From: Thioalkalivibrio thiocyanoxidans ARh2
Lineage (GTDB): Bacteria > Pseudomonadota > Gammaproteobacteria > Ectothiorhodospirales > Ectothiorhodospiraceae
DNA length: 64,000 nucleotides
Reading direction: 5' to 3'
Assembly: GCF_000385215.1 (NCBI RefSeq)
Contig: NZ_ARQK01000050.1
Span: 1-64,000 of the forward strand
Part shown: positions 21,663 through 28,514 of the stretch, in pieces
Position numbering within the stretch: position 1 is the stretch's first letter
Layout: every line of letters starts with the position of its first letter
Position numbers and translations under genes: made by a program
The notes under the pieces: model-generated
Database searches by the model: none
Told to the model about the DNA's origin: nothing
The model's input: the letters and a program-made list of their open reading frames with translations, nothing else

Positions 21663-23339
21663 ATGTACAACGTCGCGACCCGAGGACCCTTCAAGGGACT
21701 GAACCCGCGCGTGGCCCCGGTCGCGTTGCTGCTGGTGGTGCTGATTGCGCTGTTCGCGATCTATCGCACGGATCAGCTCGAGGAGGCCGTCTCCGGTGCC
21801 CGCGCCTTTCTGACGCCGTTTCTCGAGTGGTACTACGTCGTCGCGATGGCCTTCTTTCTGGCCATCGTGATCTGGCTGGGCGTCGGACGCTACAAGGATG
21901 TGCGCCTCGGTCGGGATGACGAGGTCCCGGAGTTCACCACGCTGTCATGGCTGGCGATGCTGTTTGCCGCTGGTATGGGCGTGGGGCTGCTGTTCTGGGC
22001 GGTGGCCGAGCCGCTCAGCCACTACGGGGGCAATCCGTTCCTGCTGGACAATGGCGAGACGGCCGAGGCCGCCGACATGTCCATGGTGCTGACCTATTTT
22101 CACTGGGGTCTGAATGCCTGGGCGGTGTTTGCCCTGCTGGCACTGATCCTGGCCTATTTCGGCTTTCGCAAGGGGCAACCGCTGGCGCTGCGTTCCGCCC
22201 TGCATCCTCTTATCGGGAAATACAGCCATGGCTGGCCTGGCGACATCGTCGATCTGCTGGCGATCCTGGCCACGGTTTTCGGGATTGCGACGACACTGGG
22301 ACTGGGTATCCAGCAACTGGATACCGGTCTGGTGCATACGCTGGGTATTGGCGGTGGCGAGCACGGCCAACTGTTTTTGGCGGCGCTGCTCACGGCGATC
22401 GCCATCGTGTCCGTCATTACCGGTGTACAGGTCGGTGTGCAGCGGATCTCCCAGGCCAACATGTGGCTGAGCGTGGCCTTGATAGGCCTGCTGCTGATCT
22501 GGGGGCCAACCCAGTACCTGTTGGCGCTGTTCGTGCAGTCCTCCGGCAGCTACCTGCAGAACCTGCTGGGGTTGTCCCTGTACACCCACGCCCATCAGAC
22601 GGACCCCTGGCACTCCGACTGGACGGTGTTCTACTGGGGCTGGTGGCTGGCCTGGGCTCCGTTCGTGGGGCTGTTCATCGCGCGCATCTCGCGCGGCCGT
22701 ACGCTGCGCGAGTTCGTCCTGGGCGTCCTGCTGGTCCCTACGGTGATCACCTTCTTCTGGCTGGCGATGCTGGGTGGCACGGCCCTGCATGCCGAGATCG
22801 AACGGGGCGTGGGCATTGCCGACATCGTCGCCGAGGACCTGACCTTGGCCACCTTCGCGACCATGGACACGCTGGAGCCCTGGCTGGCCGCCAAGGTCGG
22901 GGGCGGGCTGATCACGATCCTGATCGCGACCTACCTGCTGACCTCGGCCAATGCCGGGATCGTCGTGATCAACACCCTTCTGGCCCACGGTTCGACAGAG
23001 CACCGCAAGCGACATCTGACCATCTGGGGTGCGCTGATCGGGCTGATTACCGCGGTTCTTTTGCTGGCGGGCGGGCTGGAGGTCCTGCAGAGCGCGGTGA
23101 TCCTCGCCGCCCTGCCGTTTTCGCTGGTGATCCTGATGATGATTGTCGGGCTGGTTCGAGGGCTGGAGCAGGAGCCCTGGGCACCACGGCCGGGCGAGCG
23201 GACGATCCTGCCCAGCGAGCCCTGGCAGGTGCCACCGGATCGCATGCACGAGCATTACGATACCGACGACGATGCCCCCGAATCCGGCCCGGACGACGAC
23301 GATCAAGAAGACCGGGAGCCACCGCCACGGCCGTGGTGA
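21663..23339 (+). CDS. BCCT family betaine/carnitine/choline transporter
   Basis: A 558-residue, 12-helix secondary carrier of the BCCT family, which imports glycine betaine, choline or related solutes using sodium or proton gradients. The family signature lies in DWTVFYWGWWLAWAPFVG and FIARISRGRTLREFVLG around residues 320-355, where tryptophans build the aromatic substrate box. MLFAAGMGVGLLFWAVAEPL marks TM3. The carboxyl tail is acidic (DDDAPESGPDDDDQED), possibly an osmosensing region as in BetP/BetT, which I infer only. GGAGG precedes the ATG. It fits life at high salinity. Confidence 0.93.
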   Translation: MYNVATRGPFKGLNPRVAPVALLLVVLIALFAIYRTDQLEEAVSGARAFLTPFLEWYYVVAMAFFLAIVIWLGVGRYKDVRLGRDDEVPEFTTLSWLAMLFAAGMGVGLLFWAVAEPLSHYGGNPFLLDNGETAEAADMSMVLTYFHWGLNAWAVFALLALILAYFGFRKGQPLALRSALHPLIGKYSHGWPGDIVDLLAILATVFGIATTLGLGIQQLDTGLVHTLGIGGGEHGQLFLAALLTAIAIVSVITGVQVGVQRISQANMWLSVALIGLLLIWGPTQYLLALFVQSSGSYLQNLLGLSLYTHAHQTDPWHSDWTVFYWGWWLAWAPFVGLFIARISRGRTLREFVLGVLLVPTVITFFWLAMLGGTALHAEIERGVGIADIVAEDLTLATFATMDTLEPWLAAKVGGGLITILIATYLLTSANAGIVVINTLLAHGSTEHRKRHLTIWGALIGLITAVLLLAGGLEVLQSAVILAALPFSLVILMMIVGLVRGLEQEPWAPRPGERTILPSEPWQVPPDRMHEHYDTDDDAPESGPDDDDQEDREPPPRPW

Positions 23340-23398
23340 GCGTTTGACGCCTCGTTTGGTCGGGCGGAAAGTCCCGCCGGCTTTGCGTTCACTTTCTG

Positions 23399-23426
23399 TT
23401 GCGCAGGCGTTGCCCTAGCCTATGCA
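23399..23426 (+). promoter_or_regulatory. possible promoter for the 23454 gene
   Basis: TTGCGC (23399-23404) and TATGCA (23421-23426) are separated by 16 bases. They lie about 28 bases before the start codon of the small gene at 23454. Confidence 0.4.
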
Positions 23427-23453
23427 ACAACGTTCGATAACCGAAGGAGCACC

Positions 23454-23744
23454 ATGAGTGACGATACCCTGCAGCTGTCCGGCGACCTGATCCAGAAGAT
23501 CCAGGACGTGCTGGTCGAGACCGATCCCAGGGCCCAGCAGCCCATCGTGGCGGTACAGTATCTGAGTGCGATTACCGGCTTTCTGGTCGCGCAGATGCCG
23601 GAGTCGGTGAACGAGCGCAAGGAATATCTCAAGCAGCTGTCGCAGTTCACCGAATCGGTATTTGTGGATATGGAAAGCCGCAAGCAGGCGGCTCCGCCGC
23701 CGCAGCAGGAGGCCAGTGGCGTCTGGCGCCCGGGCGACAGCTGA
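23454..23744 (+). CDS. small conserved-looking hypothetical protein
   Basis: A 96-residue soluble protein I do not recognise. It is predicted largely helical: SGDLIQKIQDVLVETDPRAQQPIVAVQYLSAITGFLVAQMP, then NERKEYLKQLSQFTESVFVDME, ending in a proline/glutamine-rich tail. There is no signal peptide, metal motif or cysteine. A strong AAGGAG ribosome site six bases before the ATG and a plausible promoter support real expression. It is convergent with the next gene. Confidence 0.7.
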   Translation: MSDDTLQLSGDLIQKIQDVLVETDPRAQQPIVAVQYLSAITGFLVAQMPESVNERKEYLKQLSQFTESVFVDMESRKQAAPPPQQEASGVWRPGDS

Positions 23745-23773
23745 AAACCGTCGGGCTCCCCCAGGGCCGGGGC

Positions 23774-24352
23774 CTAGTGATCCCCGGTCTCGTCCTTCCT
23801 GTGTGAGCGCATCTGGCGCAGCATCGCCTCCTGTTCGTTGAAGCTCGGCATGCGCCGCTTACCGCCCGTGTCGCGATCGCGATCACTGGCCCCGGCGGTG
23901 CCCGGGTGTCCGGCGCGCTCGCTTTCCTTGATCGACTGGTACTCGGCCAGTTCGCGCTGGGCGTCCTCGTCGCTGGTGTAGCGGCCGCGATAGTCCTGCG
24001 GCGGTTTGTGACCCTTGCGCAGGAACACCTGCTTGCGCAGTTCCTTGTTGTAGTCCGTCACGCGGCGGTCGATCCAGATCAGATCAAACGCTGCCCACGC
24101 GGCTGCGGCACCCGCCGGGATCAGCCACCACCAGCCGGTTAGCAGCCAGGCCACGATCAGTGTGGCCGCGGTGAGGCCGATGAATCCCGTGCCCCCGAGC
24201 GGCTCGCGCAGGTAGAAGCGGTGCAGCCCTAGCGGAAACAGGATCCAGGCGATGTAGGCAGGCGGGCGCGCGCGCATCTCGGCCGCAAGTTTCGCGTTGA
24301 TCGCCTGCAGGCCGCCGCCCTCGAGATCCAGTTCCTTCCACGCCTTGCGCAT
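23774..24352 (-). CDS. TM2-like membrane protein with charged tail
   Basis: A 192-residue protein with two or three membrane helices near residues 30-90. The segment ILFPLGLHRFYLREPLGGTGFIGL matches the TM2-domain pattern (G-x-HRFYLG). The cytoplasmic tail, residues 95-192, is highly charged with several Arg/Asp/Glu clusters and no known domain. Function of bacterial TM2 proteins is mostly unknown. The short N-terminal helix KELDLEGGGLQAINAKLAAEMRAR is amphipathic. It ends 29 bases from the convergent 23454 gene. Confidence 0.72.
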   Translation of the reverse strand: MRKAWKELDLEGGGLQAINAKLAAEMRARPPAYIAWILFPLGLHRFYLREPLGGTGFIGLTAATLIVAWLLTGWWWLIPAGAAAAWAAFDLIWIDRRVTDYNKELRKQVFLRKGHKPPQDYRGRYTSDEDAQRELAEYQSIKESERAGHPGTAGASDRDRDTGGKRRMPSFNEQEAMLRQMRSHRKDETGDH

Positions 24353-24435
24353 GGATGCCTCCCAGCTGTGGACAATCGTCCGTGCACGGTAACGAACCGC
24401 ACGAACGGGTGCGATTGCGCGGGTTCGGCTCGGGG

Positions 24436-25434
24436 TTACCCGGTCGGGTTCTCGTGGGTCGGATCGCGTTCCAGCAGGCGGCGTGCGGCCTCGCGTACCG
24501 GTCGCCCCTGGTAGAGCACGGCGTGGACCTCCGCGCAGATGGGCATGTCCACCGACAGGGCCTCGGCGCGCGTGCTGATCTGGCGCGCGGTCTCCACCCC
24601 CTCGACCGACTGGCCGATACGGGCACGGGCCGTCTCCAGGTCATAGCCCTGACCCAGCAGGCGCCCCAGGCGACGGTTGCGCGACTGGTCGTCGGTGCAG
24701 GTGAGGATCAGATCGCCGAGACCGGACAGCCCGGTCAGCGTGCCCGGCTGGGCCCCGACCGCCTCGCCCAGGCGCTGCATTTCGGCCAGACCGCGGGTCA
24801 TCAGCGCGGCGCGGGCATTGCCGCCGTAGCCCGCGCCGTCGGCGATCCCGGTCGCGACCGCGAGGACGTTCTTCAGGGCCCCCCCCATCTCCACACCGAT
24901 CACGTCGTGATTGCGATAGATGCGCAGAGCGTCGCCATGCAGTGCGCCGGCCAGGCGGTCCAGGCTGTGTTCGCTCTGCGAGGCCGCCGTCAGTGCGGTG
25001 GGCTGGCCGCGGGCCACCTCTGCGGCGAAGGAGGGTCCGGAGATCAGCGCGGGCGGGAAGCCGGAGCCCAGTTCTTCCTCGGCGATCTCGTGCAGCCAGG
25101 CCCCGCTGGACGTCTCCAGTCCCTTGGTGGCCCAGGCGACCGTCTGGTCTTCGCGCAGGCGGGGCTGCATCCAGCGCAGCGTCTCGCGAAAGGCCCCGGA
25201 CGGGACGGCGAGCAGCACCAGCTCCGCGTGGTCGATCACGCCCTGGTCGGCGCTGATGGAGAGATTCTCCGGGAAGGGGATGCCAGGCAGATAGCGGGCG
25301 TTTTCGCGTTCGCGATTCAGCCGCTCGGCGGCCTCGTCCTTGCGGACCCAGAGCGCGACGTCCTGGTGCAGCCGCGCGGCGTGGATCGCCAGCGCGGTAC
25401 CCCAGGAGCCGCCACCCAGGAGTGCAATGCGCAC
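24436..25434 (-). CDS. gpsA: glycerol-3-phosphate dehydrogenase [NAD(P)+]
   Basis: Reduces dihydroxyacetone phosphate to sn-glycerol 3-phosphate for phospholipids. It has 332 residues. The N-terminal Rossmann loop is ALLGGGSWGTALA. Catalytic residues lie in GGALKNVLAVATGIADG near residue 190 (the active-site Lys) and GLSGLGDLILTCTDDQSRNRRLG. The start is GTG at 25434. It is the last gene of the yibN-like rhodanese - grxC - secB - gpsA operon, whose order is the same in E. coli. Confidence 0.97.
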   Translation of the reverse strand: MRIALLGGGSWGTALAIHAARLHQDVALWVRKDEAAERLNRERENARYLPGIPFPENLSISADQGVIDHAELVLLAVPSGAFRETLRWMQPRLREDQTVAWATKGLETSSGAWLHEIAEEELGSGFPPALISGPSFAAEVARGQPTALTAASQSEHSLDRLAGALHGDALRIYRNHDVIGVEMGGALKNVLAVATGIADGAGYGGNARAALMTRGLAEMQRLGEAVGAQPGTLTGLSGLGDLILTCTDDQSRNRRLGRLLGQGYDLETARARIGQSVEGVETARQISTRAEALSVDMPICAEVHAVLYQGRPVREAARRLLERDPTHENPTG

Positions 25435-25450
25435 GGGTACGAGTCCCGGC

Positions 25451-25987
25451 TCAGGCCTGGGAGGTCGACTCCGGCGAGGCCGCCTGCGAGTCGCCGGACG
25501 CCTTCTTCTGGTCTTCCAGGTGTTGCTGGTACAGCGCCTCGAAGTTGACCGGCTGCAGCAGCAGCTGCGGGAAGCCGCCCTTGAGCACCAGGTCGGCGAC
25601 CGTTTCGCGGGCGAACGGGAACAGCAGGTTCGGGCAGTAGGAGCCGAGCAGCTGGTTGAGCTGGTCGCGGGGGAAGCCGCGGACGATGAAGACGCCGGCC
25701 TGGTTGATCTCGACCAGGTAGGCGGTCTTGCCGTTGGACTCGGTGGTCACGGTCAGTTTCAGCTCGACCTCGAACACGCCTTCCTCTTCGCGAATCGGGC
25801 GGGCGTTGGTGTTCAGCTGGATGTTCGTCTCGCCCTTCCACTCGTTCAGAAAGATCTCGGGGGCGTCCGGCGATTCGAACGAGATGTCCTTGATGAACAC
25901 CTTCTGGATGGAGAAGCCGGGGTTGTCCTGGGTGTTGCCCTGCGCACCTGCGCCGTTGCCGCTGGTGTTGGAAGTGTCTTCAGCCAT
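25451..25987 (-). CDS. secB: protein-export chaperone SecB
   Basis: Tetrameric chaperone that keeps secretory precursors unfolded and delivers them to SecA. The 178 residues cover the conserved core from FSIQKVFIKDISFESPDAP to GVFIVRGFPRDQLNQLLGSYCPNLLFPFARE. The C-terminal LEALYQQHL/EDQKKA segment corresponds to the SecA/ribosome-binding helix region. Extra low-complexity residues occur at both ends (NTSGNGAGAQGN; ASPESTSQA). It lies 16 bases before gpsA and about 72 after grxC. Confidence 0.97.
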   Translation of the reverse strand: MAEDTSNTSGNGAGAQGNTQDNPGFSIQKVFIKDISFESPDAPEIFLNEWKGETNIQLNTNARPIREEEGVFEVELKLTVTTESNGKTAYLVEINQAGVFIVRGFPRDQLNQLLGSYCPNLLFPFARETVADLVLKGGFPQLLLQPVNFEALYQQHLEDQKKASGDSQAASPESTSQA

Positions 25988-26059
25988 GATGTCGTTCCGA
26001 GTCGTGGAGAGTGGATTCGTATCGGGGCATCGTATAGCAATGCGGCGCCGGAATGGGGC

Positions 26060-26338
26060 TCAGCTCGCGCTGGCCGGCTCGATCCCGGCCGCTTCGGCCA
26101 TGTGTTGCAGTTCGCCGGAGCGGTCCAGCGCCTGCAGCTCGTCGTAGCCGCCAATGTGGGTGTCGCCGAGGAAGATCTGCGGTACCGAGCTGCGCCCGGC
26201 ACGCTGTTCCATTTCCGCGCGCGCACCGGGTTCGCGGTCGACCGGGTGGTCGTCGAAGGGGTAGCCGTGGTGGATCAGCAGCCGGCGGGCCAGCAGGCAG
26301 AATGGGCACCGGACCGTGCCATAGACCTCGAAGCGCAT
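26060..26338 (-). CDS. grxC: glutaredoxin 3
   Basis: A 92-residue dithiol glutaredoxin using the active site CPFC at residues 11-14 to reduce disulfides with glutathione. The cis-proline segment is SSVPQIFLGDTHIGGYDEL, which binds glutathione, with the terminal GG-x-DEL motif. The gene's ATG shares one base with the stop of the upstream rhodanese gene (TAATG), so the two are translationally coupled. This links thiol repair with sulfur transfer. Confidence 0.95.
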   Translation of the reverse strand: MRFEVYGTVRCPFCLLARRLLIHHGYPFDDHPVDREPGARAEMEQRAGRSSVPQIFLGDTHIGGYDELQALDRSGELQHMAEAAGIEPASAS

Positions 26339-26766
26339 TATTTCTTCTTGATCGGCATGCCCGCGGATTGCCAGGCCTGGATGCCGCCCTGGAGGTTCAC
26401 GACATCCTGGAAGCCCGCTGCGGTTAGTTGCGAGGCCGCCATCGCGGAGCGATTGCCGCTGCGGCAGTAGACCACTACCGGCTTGTCCTTGTACTTGGCG
26501 ATGTCGTCCATGCGCTTTTGCAGACTACCCACCGGGATGTGCTTGGCGCCACTGATGCGCCCGGAGGCAATCTCGTTGTCCTCGCGCACGTCCAGTACCA
26601 GGCTGTCGTCCTGGTTGATCACGCGCACGGCCTCGCTCGGAGACAGGGTGCGGTACTTGCGGGTCAGGCGGCGGAACTCGGTGAACAGGATCATCCCGAC
26701 GACCGCGAGCAGGGCACCGGTCAGGATCGGGTGATTGGACAGGAATTCAGGGAGTCTTTCGAGCAT
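26338..26766 (-). CDS. membrane-anchored rhodanese (YibN type)
   Basis: A 142-residue single-domain rhodanese anchored by one N-terminal helix (HPILTGALLAVVGMILFTEF, residues 12-31). The persulfide-carrying Cys101 is in the loop VVYCRSGNRSAMAA, a six-residue CRSGNR loop typical of sulfurtransferases. LVLDVREDNEIASGRISGAKHIPVG is the family's first motif. The E. coli orthologue YibN occupies the same operon position. It may pass sulfane sulfur at the cytoplasmic face of the membrane. The upstream regulator gene 27 bases away suggests sulfur-responsive control. Confidence 0.93.
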   Translation of the reverse strand: MLERLPEFLSNHPILTGALLAVVGMILFTEFRRLTRKYRTLSPSEAVRVINQDDSLVLDVREDNEIASGRISGAKHIPVGSLQKRMDDIAKYKDKPVVVYCRSGNRSAMAASQLTAAGFQDVVNLQGGIQAWQSAGMPIKKK

Positions 26767-26793
26767 TCAGGGGCCGCGTTGGTCAGGGAGATG

Positions 26794-27129
26794 TCAGGAG
26801 CTGCAGAAAACGTCCTGCATCATACCGATCAGGCGCAGTGTGCGGGAGTCCCCCACCCGGTAGTAGACGCGGTTCGCATCCTTGCGGGTGGCCAGAATGC
26901 CCTTATCGCGCAGGATGCCCAGATGCTGCGAAATGTTGCTCTGCGAGGTCCCGACCTGATCGACAATTTCCTGTACGCTGATCTCGCGATCGCCGAGAAT
27001 GCAGAGGATCTTGAGCCGCAGGGGGTGGGACATGGCCTTGAGCGAGCGCGAGGCCCGCTCGATGTCCTCGTCCTGGGACATCAGTTCGTCTTCGACCACC
27101 TTTTCGTCTTCGAGCGTTTCGTTGCTCAC
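26794..27129 (-). CDS. ArsR family regulator, BigR/SqrR-like (candidate persulfide sensor)
   Basis: A 111-residue winged-helix repressor-type protein. The recognition helix lies in VDQVGTSQSNISQHLGILRDKGILATRKDANRVYYRV. Two cysteines, Cys43 (RLKILCIL) and Cys109 (MQDVFCSS), are 66 residues apart. That is the same spacing as the disulfide/tetrasulfide pair of the sulfide sensors SqrR (Cys41/Cys107) and BigR (Cys42/Cys108). The arsenic- or metal-binding CVC motif of classical ArsR is missing. I use the GTG at 27129, with AGAGG seven bases upstream. It reads into the rhodanese-grxC-secB-gpsA operon and is divergent from envC. Confidence 0.88.
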   Translation of the reverse strand: MSNETLEDEKVVEDELMSQDEDIERASRSLKAMSHPLRLKILCILGDREISVQEIVDQVGTSQSNISQHLGILRDKGILATRKDANRVYYRVGDSRTLRLIGMMQDVFCSS

Positions 27130-27144
27130 GGCATGCCTCTTTAT

Positions 27145-27158
27145 TGTTTTGCGAAACA
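27145..27158. promoter_or_regulatory. inverted repeat upstream of the ArsR gene, candidate operator
   Basis: TGTTT-TGCG-AAACA is a perfect 5-bp inverted repeat 15 bases ahead of the regulator's start codon. A second small symmetry, GTAC-N6-GTAC, lies at 27187-27200, 6 bases before the envC start. Either could be the operator controlling the divergent pair. ArsR-family operators are typically short inverted repeats, but neither is a known consensus. Confidence 0.3.
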
Positions 27159-27206
27159 GCAGGCCCGTAACCGGGTGAGAATATAAGTACCTAAACGTAC
27201 CCCGAT

Positions 27207-28406
27207 ATGCGAATTTGCGCAATCTTGACTTCCCGATACCCCTTACCGCTTGTTCTGGCAGTATTTTTTTTCGCCTCGGCAGGAGGGCTGTCGGCGCTCG
27301 AGCCGGAGGCCGAACTGGAAGAGACGCTGGAGGCGATCCGCGACCTGGAGCGCAGCCAGGAGGAACGCCAGGCCGCGCTTGAGCGTCTGGAGGATGAGCT
27401 CGAGCGCGCGGCGCGGGGCAGTGGCGAGTCGCGGCGCGAACTGCGCGAACTGGAGGCCGAACGCGAACAGCAGGCCGAGGTGATCGCCGATCACGAAGCG
27501 CGAGTCGAACAGGAGGAGGACCGGCTGCGCGAGGAGCGCGTGCAGGCGGGGCGCCTGCTGCGCGACCAGTGGCAGCGCGACCGGCATCCGGGGCGCGTGC
27601 CGGGCACCGGGGGCGAGGGCGAGCTGGGCCGGCTGCACCCGGAGATCGCCGCGCGGTTGCGCGAGGCGCGGGCCGAGGCGCTGGCCGCGCTGGGCGAACA
27701 GCTCGAGGTGCTGCGCGCCGCGCGCGATGACCTGGAGCGCGAGCAGGCGGTGCTGGCCGAGCAGGAAGCGGAGCTGCGCGAGGTGGTAGCCGATCTCGAA
27801 CGCGAGGAGGAACGGCAGCGCACGGCGATGGAGGAGCTGGAGCGCGCGATCGAGGACGAGGCACTGGAGCTGGCACGGCTGGAGCGCAACGCGGAAACGC
27901 TGGAGGAGGTGATTCGCGAGGTGGAGCGCGCTGCGGCCGAGCGCGAGGAGCGCGCCGCGCGGGATGATCCTCCCCCCGAGCGGGCCCCTGTGCGCTCCGA
28001 TGTGGCCTTCGAGGAACTCCAGGGCGAGCTCCCCAAGCCCGCGGAAGGGTCGGTGGCCCGGCGCTTCAACGAGCCGCGCGGAAGCCGTCTGCAGTCACGC
28101 TGGCGCGGGACGGTGCTGGAGGTCGACAACGGCGAGGCCGTGCACGCGGTCCATTTTGGCCGAGTGGTCTACGCCGACTGGATGCAGGGTTACGGTTTTC
28201 TGGTCATCCTCGACCACGGAGACGGCTACCTGACGCTGTACAGCAATCTGGAGGAAATTCTGGTTGCCGAGGGTGAGGAGGTCGAGGGGGGTGCGCGCAT
28301 GGCCCTGGCCGGGGCCGGGCGCGAGGCGATCGCGCCGGGGCTCTATTTCGAGATTCGGCGAAATGGCGATCCGTTGAACCCTGAGGACTGGTGGCTATCA
28401 CAATGA
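27207..28406 (+). CDS. envC: murein hydrolase activator EnvC
   Basis: A 399-residue periplasmic protein that activates amidases AmiA/AmiB at the septum. It has a signal peptide (about 1-31, ending ...ASAGGLSALEP). A very long coiled coil covers about residues 33-255, almost all Glu, Arg, Ala and Leu. A C-terminal LytM-like domain runs from about 280 to 399. That domain is degenerate: the usual YAHL reads YSNL and the HLHFE motif reads GLYFE, so zinc ligands are gone, as known for EnvC. It precedes ctpA. In E. coli gpmI lies between yibN and envC; here it is replaced by the arsR gene. Confidence 0.9.
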   Translation: MRICAILTSRYPLPLVLAVFFFASAGGLSALEPEAELEETLEAIRDLERSQEERQAALERLEDELERAARGSGESRRELRELEAEREQQAEVIADHEARVEQEEDRLREERVQAGRLLRDQWQRDRHPGRVPGTGGEGELGRLHPEIAARLREARAEALAALGEQLEVLRAARDDLEREQAVLAEQEAELREVVADLEREEERQRTAMEELERAIEDEALELARLERNAETLEEVIREVERAAAEREERAARDDPPPERAPVRSDVAFEELQGELPKPAEGSVARRFNEPRGSRLQSRWRGTVLEVDNGEAVHAVHFGRVVYADWMQGYGFLVILDHGDGYLTLYSNLEEILVAEGEEVEGGARMALAGAGREAIAPGLYFEIRRNGDPLNPEDWWLSQ

Positions 28407-28410
28407 CGGG

Positions 28411-28431
28411 TGTCACGAAAAAATCGTGACA
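28411..28431. other. perfect palindrome between envC and ctpA
   Basis: TGTCACGA (28411-28418) pairs with TCGTGACA (28424-28431) across AAAAA. It starts five bases after the envC stop. It may be a hairpin ending envC, or an operator for ctpA; no U-run follows. Confidence 0.45.
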
Positions 28432-28496
28432 AGGTTGGAACGATTTGTCCGGCGAAAACAGCAGACAGAGTCGGGCGTTCAGGCAGGGGTCAGATT

Positions 28497-28514
28497 CGCG
28501 ATGCTACCATCGCG
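28497..28514 (+). promoter_or_regulatory. palindrome overlapping a probable extended -10 of ctpA
   Basis: CGCGATG-CTAC-CATCGCG is a perfect 7-bp inverted repeat. Within it TGCTACCAT reads as an extended -10 element (TGN-TACCAT), 38 bases before the ctpA ATG. A regulator binding the symmetry would block the promoter. The -35 is weak. Confidence 0.35.

Follow-up and report, generated by a model that had tools for sequence, protein, structure and literature searches.

In Escherichia coli, yibN, grxC, secB and gpsA form a block beside gpmM-envC. The same gene order is found in the window, the stretch of 64,000 nucleotides from Thioalkalivibrio thiocyanoxidans ARh2 analysed here, but in the window the block is headed by a gene for an ArsR-family repressor (26794..27129, minus strand). 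What does this regulator respond to, and how far does its control extend into the genes behind it? The repressor gene starts with GTG and encodes 111 amino acids, with Met17 as an alternative start. It is followed on the minus strand, after a gap of 27 nt, by the gene of a membrane-anchored, YibN-like rhodanese with the loop CRSGNRS (26338..26766), which overlaps by 1 nt the gene of a GrxC-like glutaredoxin with CPFC (26060..26338). Further along the same strand lie secB, encoding the protein-export chaperone (25451..25987; SecB match, 1.7e-54), and gpsA, encoding glycerol-3-phosphate dehydrogenase (24436..25434). The gene of an envC-like M23 peptidase diverges on the plus strand (27207..28406). 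A search of the block from arsR to gpsA gave no terminator on the minus strand. The first-pass annotation had described the regulator as running straight into the rhodanese and the glutaredoxin, and the short gap, the overlap and the terminator search agree with this. It had also stated that the E. coli block has no such regulator; indeed, in MG1655 yibN-grxC-secB-gpsA-cysE diverges from gpmM-envC with no arsR between them.

The product of 26794-27129 matched the Pfam ArsR model PF01022 (HTH_5) at 2.8e-12, above the cut-off, and this score together with the fold match places it in the winged-HTH ArsR/SmtB superfamily. Its two predicted sensor cysteines, Cys43 (codon at 27001..27003, minus strand) and Cys109 (codon at 26803..26805, minus strand), are separated by 66 residues. 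In an AlphaFold2 model (pLDDT 82) Cys43 lies within alpha2 (residues 36-45) and Cys109 at the end of alpha5 (95-109), and the pair aligns with the cysteine pair of BigR, HlyU and YgaV. Among homologues with at least 45% identity, Cys43 was retained in 165 of 170 and Cys109 in 169 of 170. Because most of the protein is invariant within the clade, cysteine retention carries most weight in the 15 divergent orthologues (at most 60% identity, a group from another class being kept apart), 14 of which retain both residues. The alignment, the helix placement and this retention bear out the earlier claim that the spacing matches the sensor pair of SqrR and BigR. An alpha2/alpha5 cysteine pair marks the ArsR-type persulfide (RSS) sensors of SSN cluster 4. 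In a published network, all known persulfide sensors fall into one ArsR cluster, have such a pair and are often encoded near rhodaneses (PMC10509353). Known sensors with the pair respond to persulfides and not to H2O2, again with rhodaneses nearby (PMC10509353, PMC12423496).

Several natural variants of the protein were seen. Homologues from another class of the same phylum (L160-L164; 50-56% identity) have no Cys43 and retain Cys109. At the Ser29 position they carry a cysteine (RCMKAL), possibly a relocated sensor cysteine, and a rhodanese gene is next in 4 of the 5. The orthologue in L201, where synteny is complete, has lost Cys109 (end KTFSS) and is a natural single-cysteine variant. Genome G051 has a second copy (L045:4028-4282), about 54% identical and with both cysteines, that adjoins an mnmG-like gene (tRNA modification).

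The first-pass annotation had called for a phylogeny with SqrR, BigR and YgaV. A tree built with PDB-derived references put the window protein together with its relatives in a clade of their own (99/96) beside BigR, SqrR, HlyU and YgaV. This clade and the four persulfide sensors were split at 98/88 from Rv0081 and seven metal sensors, including CzrA, SmtB, NmtR, CmtR, CadC and SrnR. The regulator groups with the known RSS sensors over the metal sensors, in a sister position and not nested among them, in a tree of 91 columns with long branches from which SoxR/sHdrR sequences were left out; the exact sister order is uncertain because of the few columns and the branch lengths. Foldseek ranked HlyU (4k2e), NolR, BigR, YgaV and SqrR highest for the regulator fold. 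BigR is also its best PDB sequence match (3pqj, 4.4e-19) and its nearest NCBIfam equivalog. Identity with BigR was rejected, since the score against NF040642 was 81.1 bits vs a curated cut-off of 155 and BigR lies in a separate clade. SqrR orthology was rejected because the regulator falls outside the SqrR clade. No cysteine was found in alpha3 of the regulator (residues 52-59), where a RexT-type peroxide sensor would have two proximal ones. The regulator apparently represents an undescribed subfamily, so far without a name, that stands as a sister to the reactive-sulfur sensors already known. That it belongs to a deeply conserved sister clade, and is not a local copy of BigR, was unexpected. 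Of the earlier assignment, a sulfane-sulfur sensor of BigR/SqrR-like type is supported by the phylogeny, the fold ranking, the cysteine pair, the rhodanese linkage and the SoxY co-occurrence described below; BigR or SqrR itself it is not.

The regulator shares with BigR of Xylella and Acinetobacter the ArsR fold, the spacing of the alpha2/alpha5 pair and a rhodanese neighbourhood, but BigR has another operon and another promoter element. With SqrR of Rhodobacter capsulatus it shares the pair and the fold; SqrR controls sulfide-responsive genes, whereas rhodanese-grx-secB-gpsA lie downstream here. YgaV of E. coli also has the pair and the fold, but its identity to the regulator is about 36% in the fold alignment and its gene is not at the yibN locus. 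HlyU of Vibrio has the pair and reacts with persulfides only (PMC10509353), but is a hemolysin activator. SqrR, YgaV and HlyU, like BigR, lie in clades separate from that of the regulator. In SoxR/sHdrR of Hyphomicrobium, both sulfane-sulfur-responsive repressors (PMC10451225, PMC12423496), the cysteines are likewise 66 apart (50/116), but the targets are sox and shdr genes.

The regulator was present in every searched genome of the same genus and of the same family. Within the class, at a threshold below 1e-30, an orthologue was found in 188 of 370 genomes, spread over 80 families. Its median identity outside the genus was 83%, compared with 56 for CtpA, 52 for GpsA, 51 for SecB, 49 for the glutaredoxin, 42 for the rhodanese and 32 for EnvC. 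By these figures the clade is an ancient one, and its conservation is extreme. Synteny was followed in 80 named loci from Thioalkalivibrio, Ectothiorhodospira, Allochromatium, Thiothrix, Sedimenticola, tubeworm symbionts and others. The rhodanese was directly downstream of arsR in 71 of 75 loci; the corresponding counts were 61/65 for secB and 58/63 for gpsA, and a glutaredoxin was detected in 35/73. Divergent gpmI/envC/ctpA genes were kept in most loci.

Betaproteobacterial loci differ: there the gene leads an RND efflux operon and not the rhodanese block. The orthologues in L106:6001-12285, L122:6001-12079 and L178:5003-6858 (betaproteobacterial and related) head OEP, HlyD and ACR_tran genes, and in L106 the rhodanese-grx-secB genes come after the efflux pump. 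An RND efflux neighbourhood has been reported for sulfane-sulfur ArsR proteins (PMC12423496). In one small genome (L193:888-2701) the orthologue is flanked by an MlaC-like gene and lgt (lipoprotein/lipid), and the surroundings are once more those of the envelope.

The orthologue was compared with SoxY (PF13501) over the 370 genomes: 154 had both, 34 arsR only, 45 SoxY only and 137 neither. With one genome per family the counts were 59, 13, 17 and 52, respectively (p 4e-12), so that SoxY occurred in 59/72 family representatives with arsR vs 17/69 of those without. The odds ratio was about 14 in both samplings. The association is correlational, and taking one genome per family lessens but does not remove shared ancestry; it supports sulfur sensing and is no proof of it. 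Since 13 of the 72 family representatives with arsR have no SoxY, the regulator also occurs outside the Sox-type sulfur oxidisers.

Motif discovery upstream of arsR gave one private AT-rich element of about 30 bp, with the best form TATTATTGTATAATGTTTTACTTATA. Across loci it occurred at 74 sites vs 2 in shuffled sequence, nearly all of them single and at the arsR promoter, and its orientation and distance follow arsR. Thioalkalivibrio carries a lineage-specific form, in the window ATATCGGGGTACGTTTAGGTACTTATATTC (27179..27208, minus strand), which is conserved and includes GTAC-N6-GTAC. A search of the window's genome with this 30-mer at 3 mismatches returned this single match and no further targets. 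The strict form was present in 33 of 276 genomes, at about one copy each and, by coordinates, mostly 90-250 bp before arsR. No second element was found before the rhodanese in the arsR-rhodanese gaps. Because dyad symmetry, tested over families, was not significant (p 0.13), we call it a promoter/operator-like element and not a proven palindromic operator; it may in part be the promoter itself. Autorepression of arsR is likely, because the element precedes arsR across families and is nearly unique in each genome. In the window the element extends to the envC start codon, so that predicted binding of the regulator could also affect envC expression.

The first-pass annotation had also placed secB and gpsA under persulfide control. 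Read-through to gpsA is possible because no minus-strand terminator intervenes. A -10-like box, TACGAT (26029..26034, minus strand), lies 47 nt before secB and is a candidate internal promoter. Of 48 independent grx-secB gaps, 22 had such a hexamer 33-63 nt ahead of secB, with 4.3 expected from shuffling; no excess was seen before gpsA (0/32 gaps), and a sigma-70 promoter scan of 23300-28500 gave no matches. In E. coli, complementation was carried out with a secB-gpsA unit under its own natural promoter (PMC3503863). The conserved box and the E. coli promoter weaken the earlier claim; on this evidence, any control of the two genes by persulfide would be at most partial.

We consider it rather probable that the regulator is an autorepressor that responds to sulfane sulfur and controls arsR, rhodanese and glutaredoxin, with read-through reaching secB-gpsA in part. 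Bound to the AT-rich element that covers its own promoter, the reduced dimeric repressor would keep expression of the three genes low. A rise in sulfane sulfur would create a Cys43-Cys109 polysulfide bridge inside each subunit and release the DNA. The rhodanese then made would move sulfane sulfur at the membrane, and the glutaredoxin would reduce persulfides and mixed disulfides. SecB and GpsA would be supplied by read-through from the arsR promoter and at a basal level from their own promoter. The extreme conservation of the regulator would seem to exceed the apparent need of a single target, and this counts against such an autorepressor. The BigR score below the cut-off, the non-significant dyad, the family representatives with arsR but no SoxY and the betaproteobacterial efflux operons weigh on the same side.

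The characterised sensors of this type act on genes of sulfur oxidation, detoxification or virulence. The present clade is separate from theirs and far more conserved, and in sulfur oxidisers, including those with genomes of about 1 Mb, it is fixed at an envelope/protein-export block. Our literature search found no paper on the association of the regulator with the rhodanese-secB block. It is conceivable, if doubtful, that in sulfur-oxidising Gammaproteobacteria an ancient sensor of sulfane sulfur, which the E. coli locus lacks, couples two processes to intracellular persulfide: the insertion and export of membrane proteins, through the YibN-like rhodanese and SecB, and phospholipid-precursor synthesis, through GpsA. 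If this is true, envelope biogenesis would be a persulfide-regulated process. The link is worth testing because YibN of E. coli reportedly co-purifies with SecYEG and interacts with YidC (PMC8082313, PMC12282094). If the regulator does sense persulfide, YibN, a rhodanese without a settled function in E. coli, would gain a role, and it could be tested directly whether export or membrane synthesis is set by sulfur status.

Two other readings are unlikely, to a similar degree. The regulator might be a general thiol-redox switch, in which oxidants produce a plain Cys43-Cys109 disulfide and glutaredoxin and rhodanese serve an oxidative-stress response. The glutaredoxin in the block is consistent with this, as is the ability of H. 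denitrificans SoxR to form a disulfide as well (PMC10451225). However, HlyU, with cysteines placed alike, is unreactive with H2O2 (PMC10509353), the glutaredoxin is found at far fewer loci than the rhodanese, and the co-occurrence with SoxY points to sulfur. Alternatively, the regulator might govern sulfur metabolism more widely from main targets elsewhere, the rhodanese block reflecting ancestral linkage and autoregulation. Its exceptional conservation, the SoxY association and the fact that other genes lie downstream in beta and other-class loci would fit, but the strict element is limited to roughly a single site in a genome, the one at arsR, and arsR stays with the rhodanese block down to the genomes of about 1 Mb. 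It is very unlikely that the regulator acts mainly on the divergent genes, which are envC in the window and gpmI-envC in most relatives: the reach of the element to the envC start codon and the divergent genes retained in most loci speak for it, whereas the element keeps its orientation and distance to arsR and sulfur genes are the targets of its known relatives (PMC12423496). A metal or metalloid sensor of ArsR/SmtB type was rejected as highly improbable, for although the protein passes the generic NCBIfam metalloregulator model (83.8 vs 55 bits), as do most ArsR proteins, its sequence has no alpha3 CxC motif, the tree sets it apart from the metal sensors, and its neighbours are sulfur and envelope genes.
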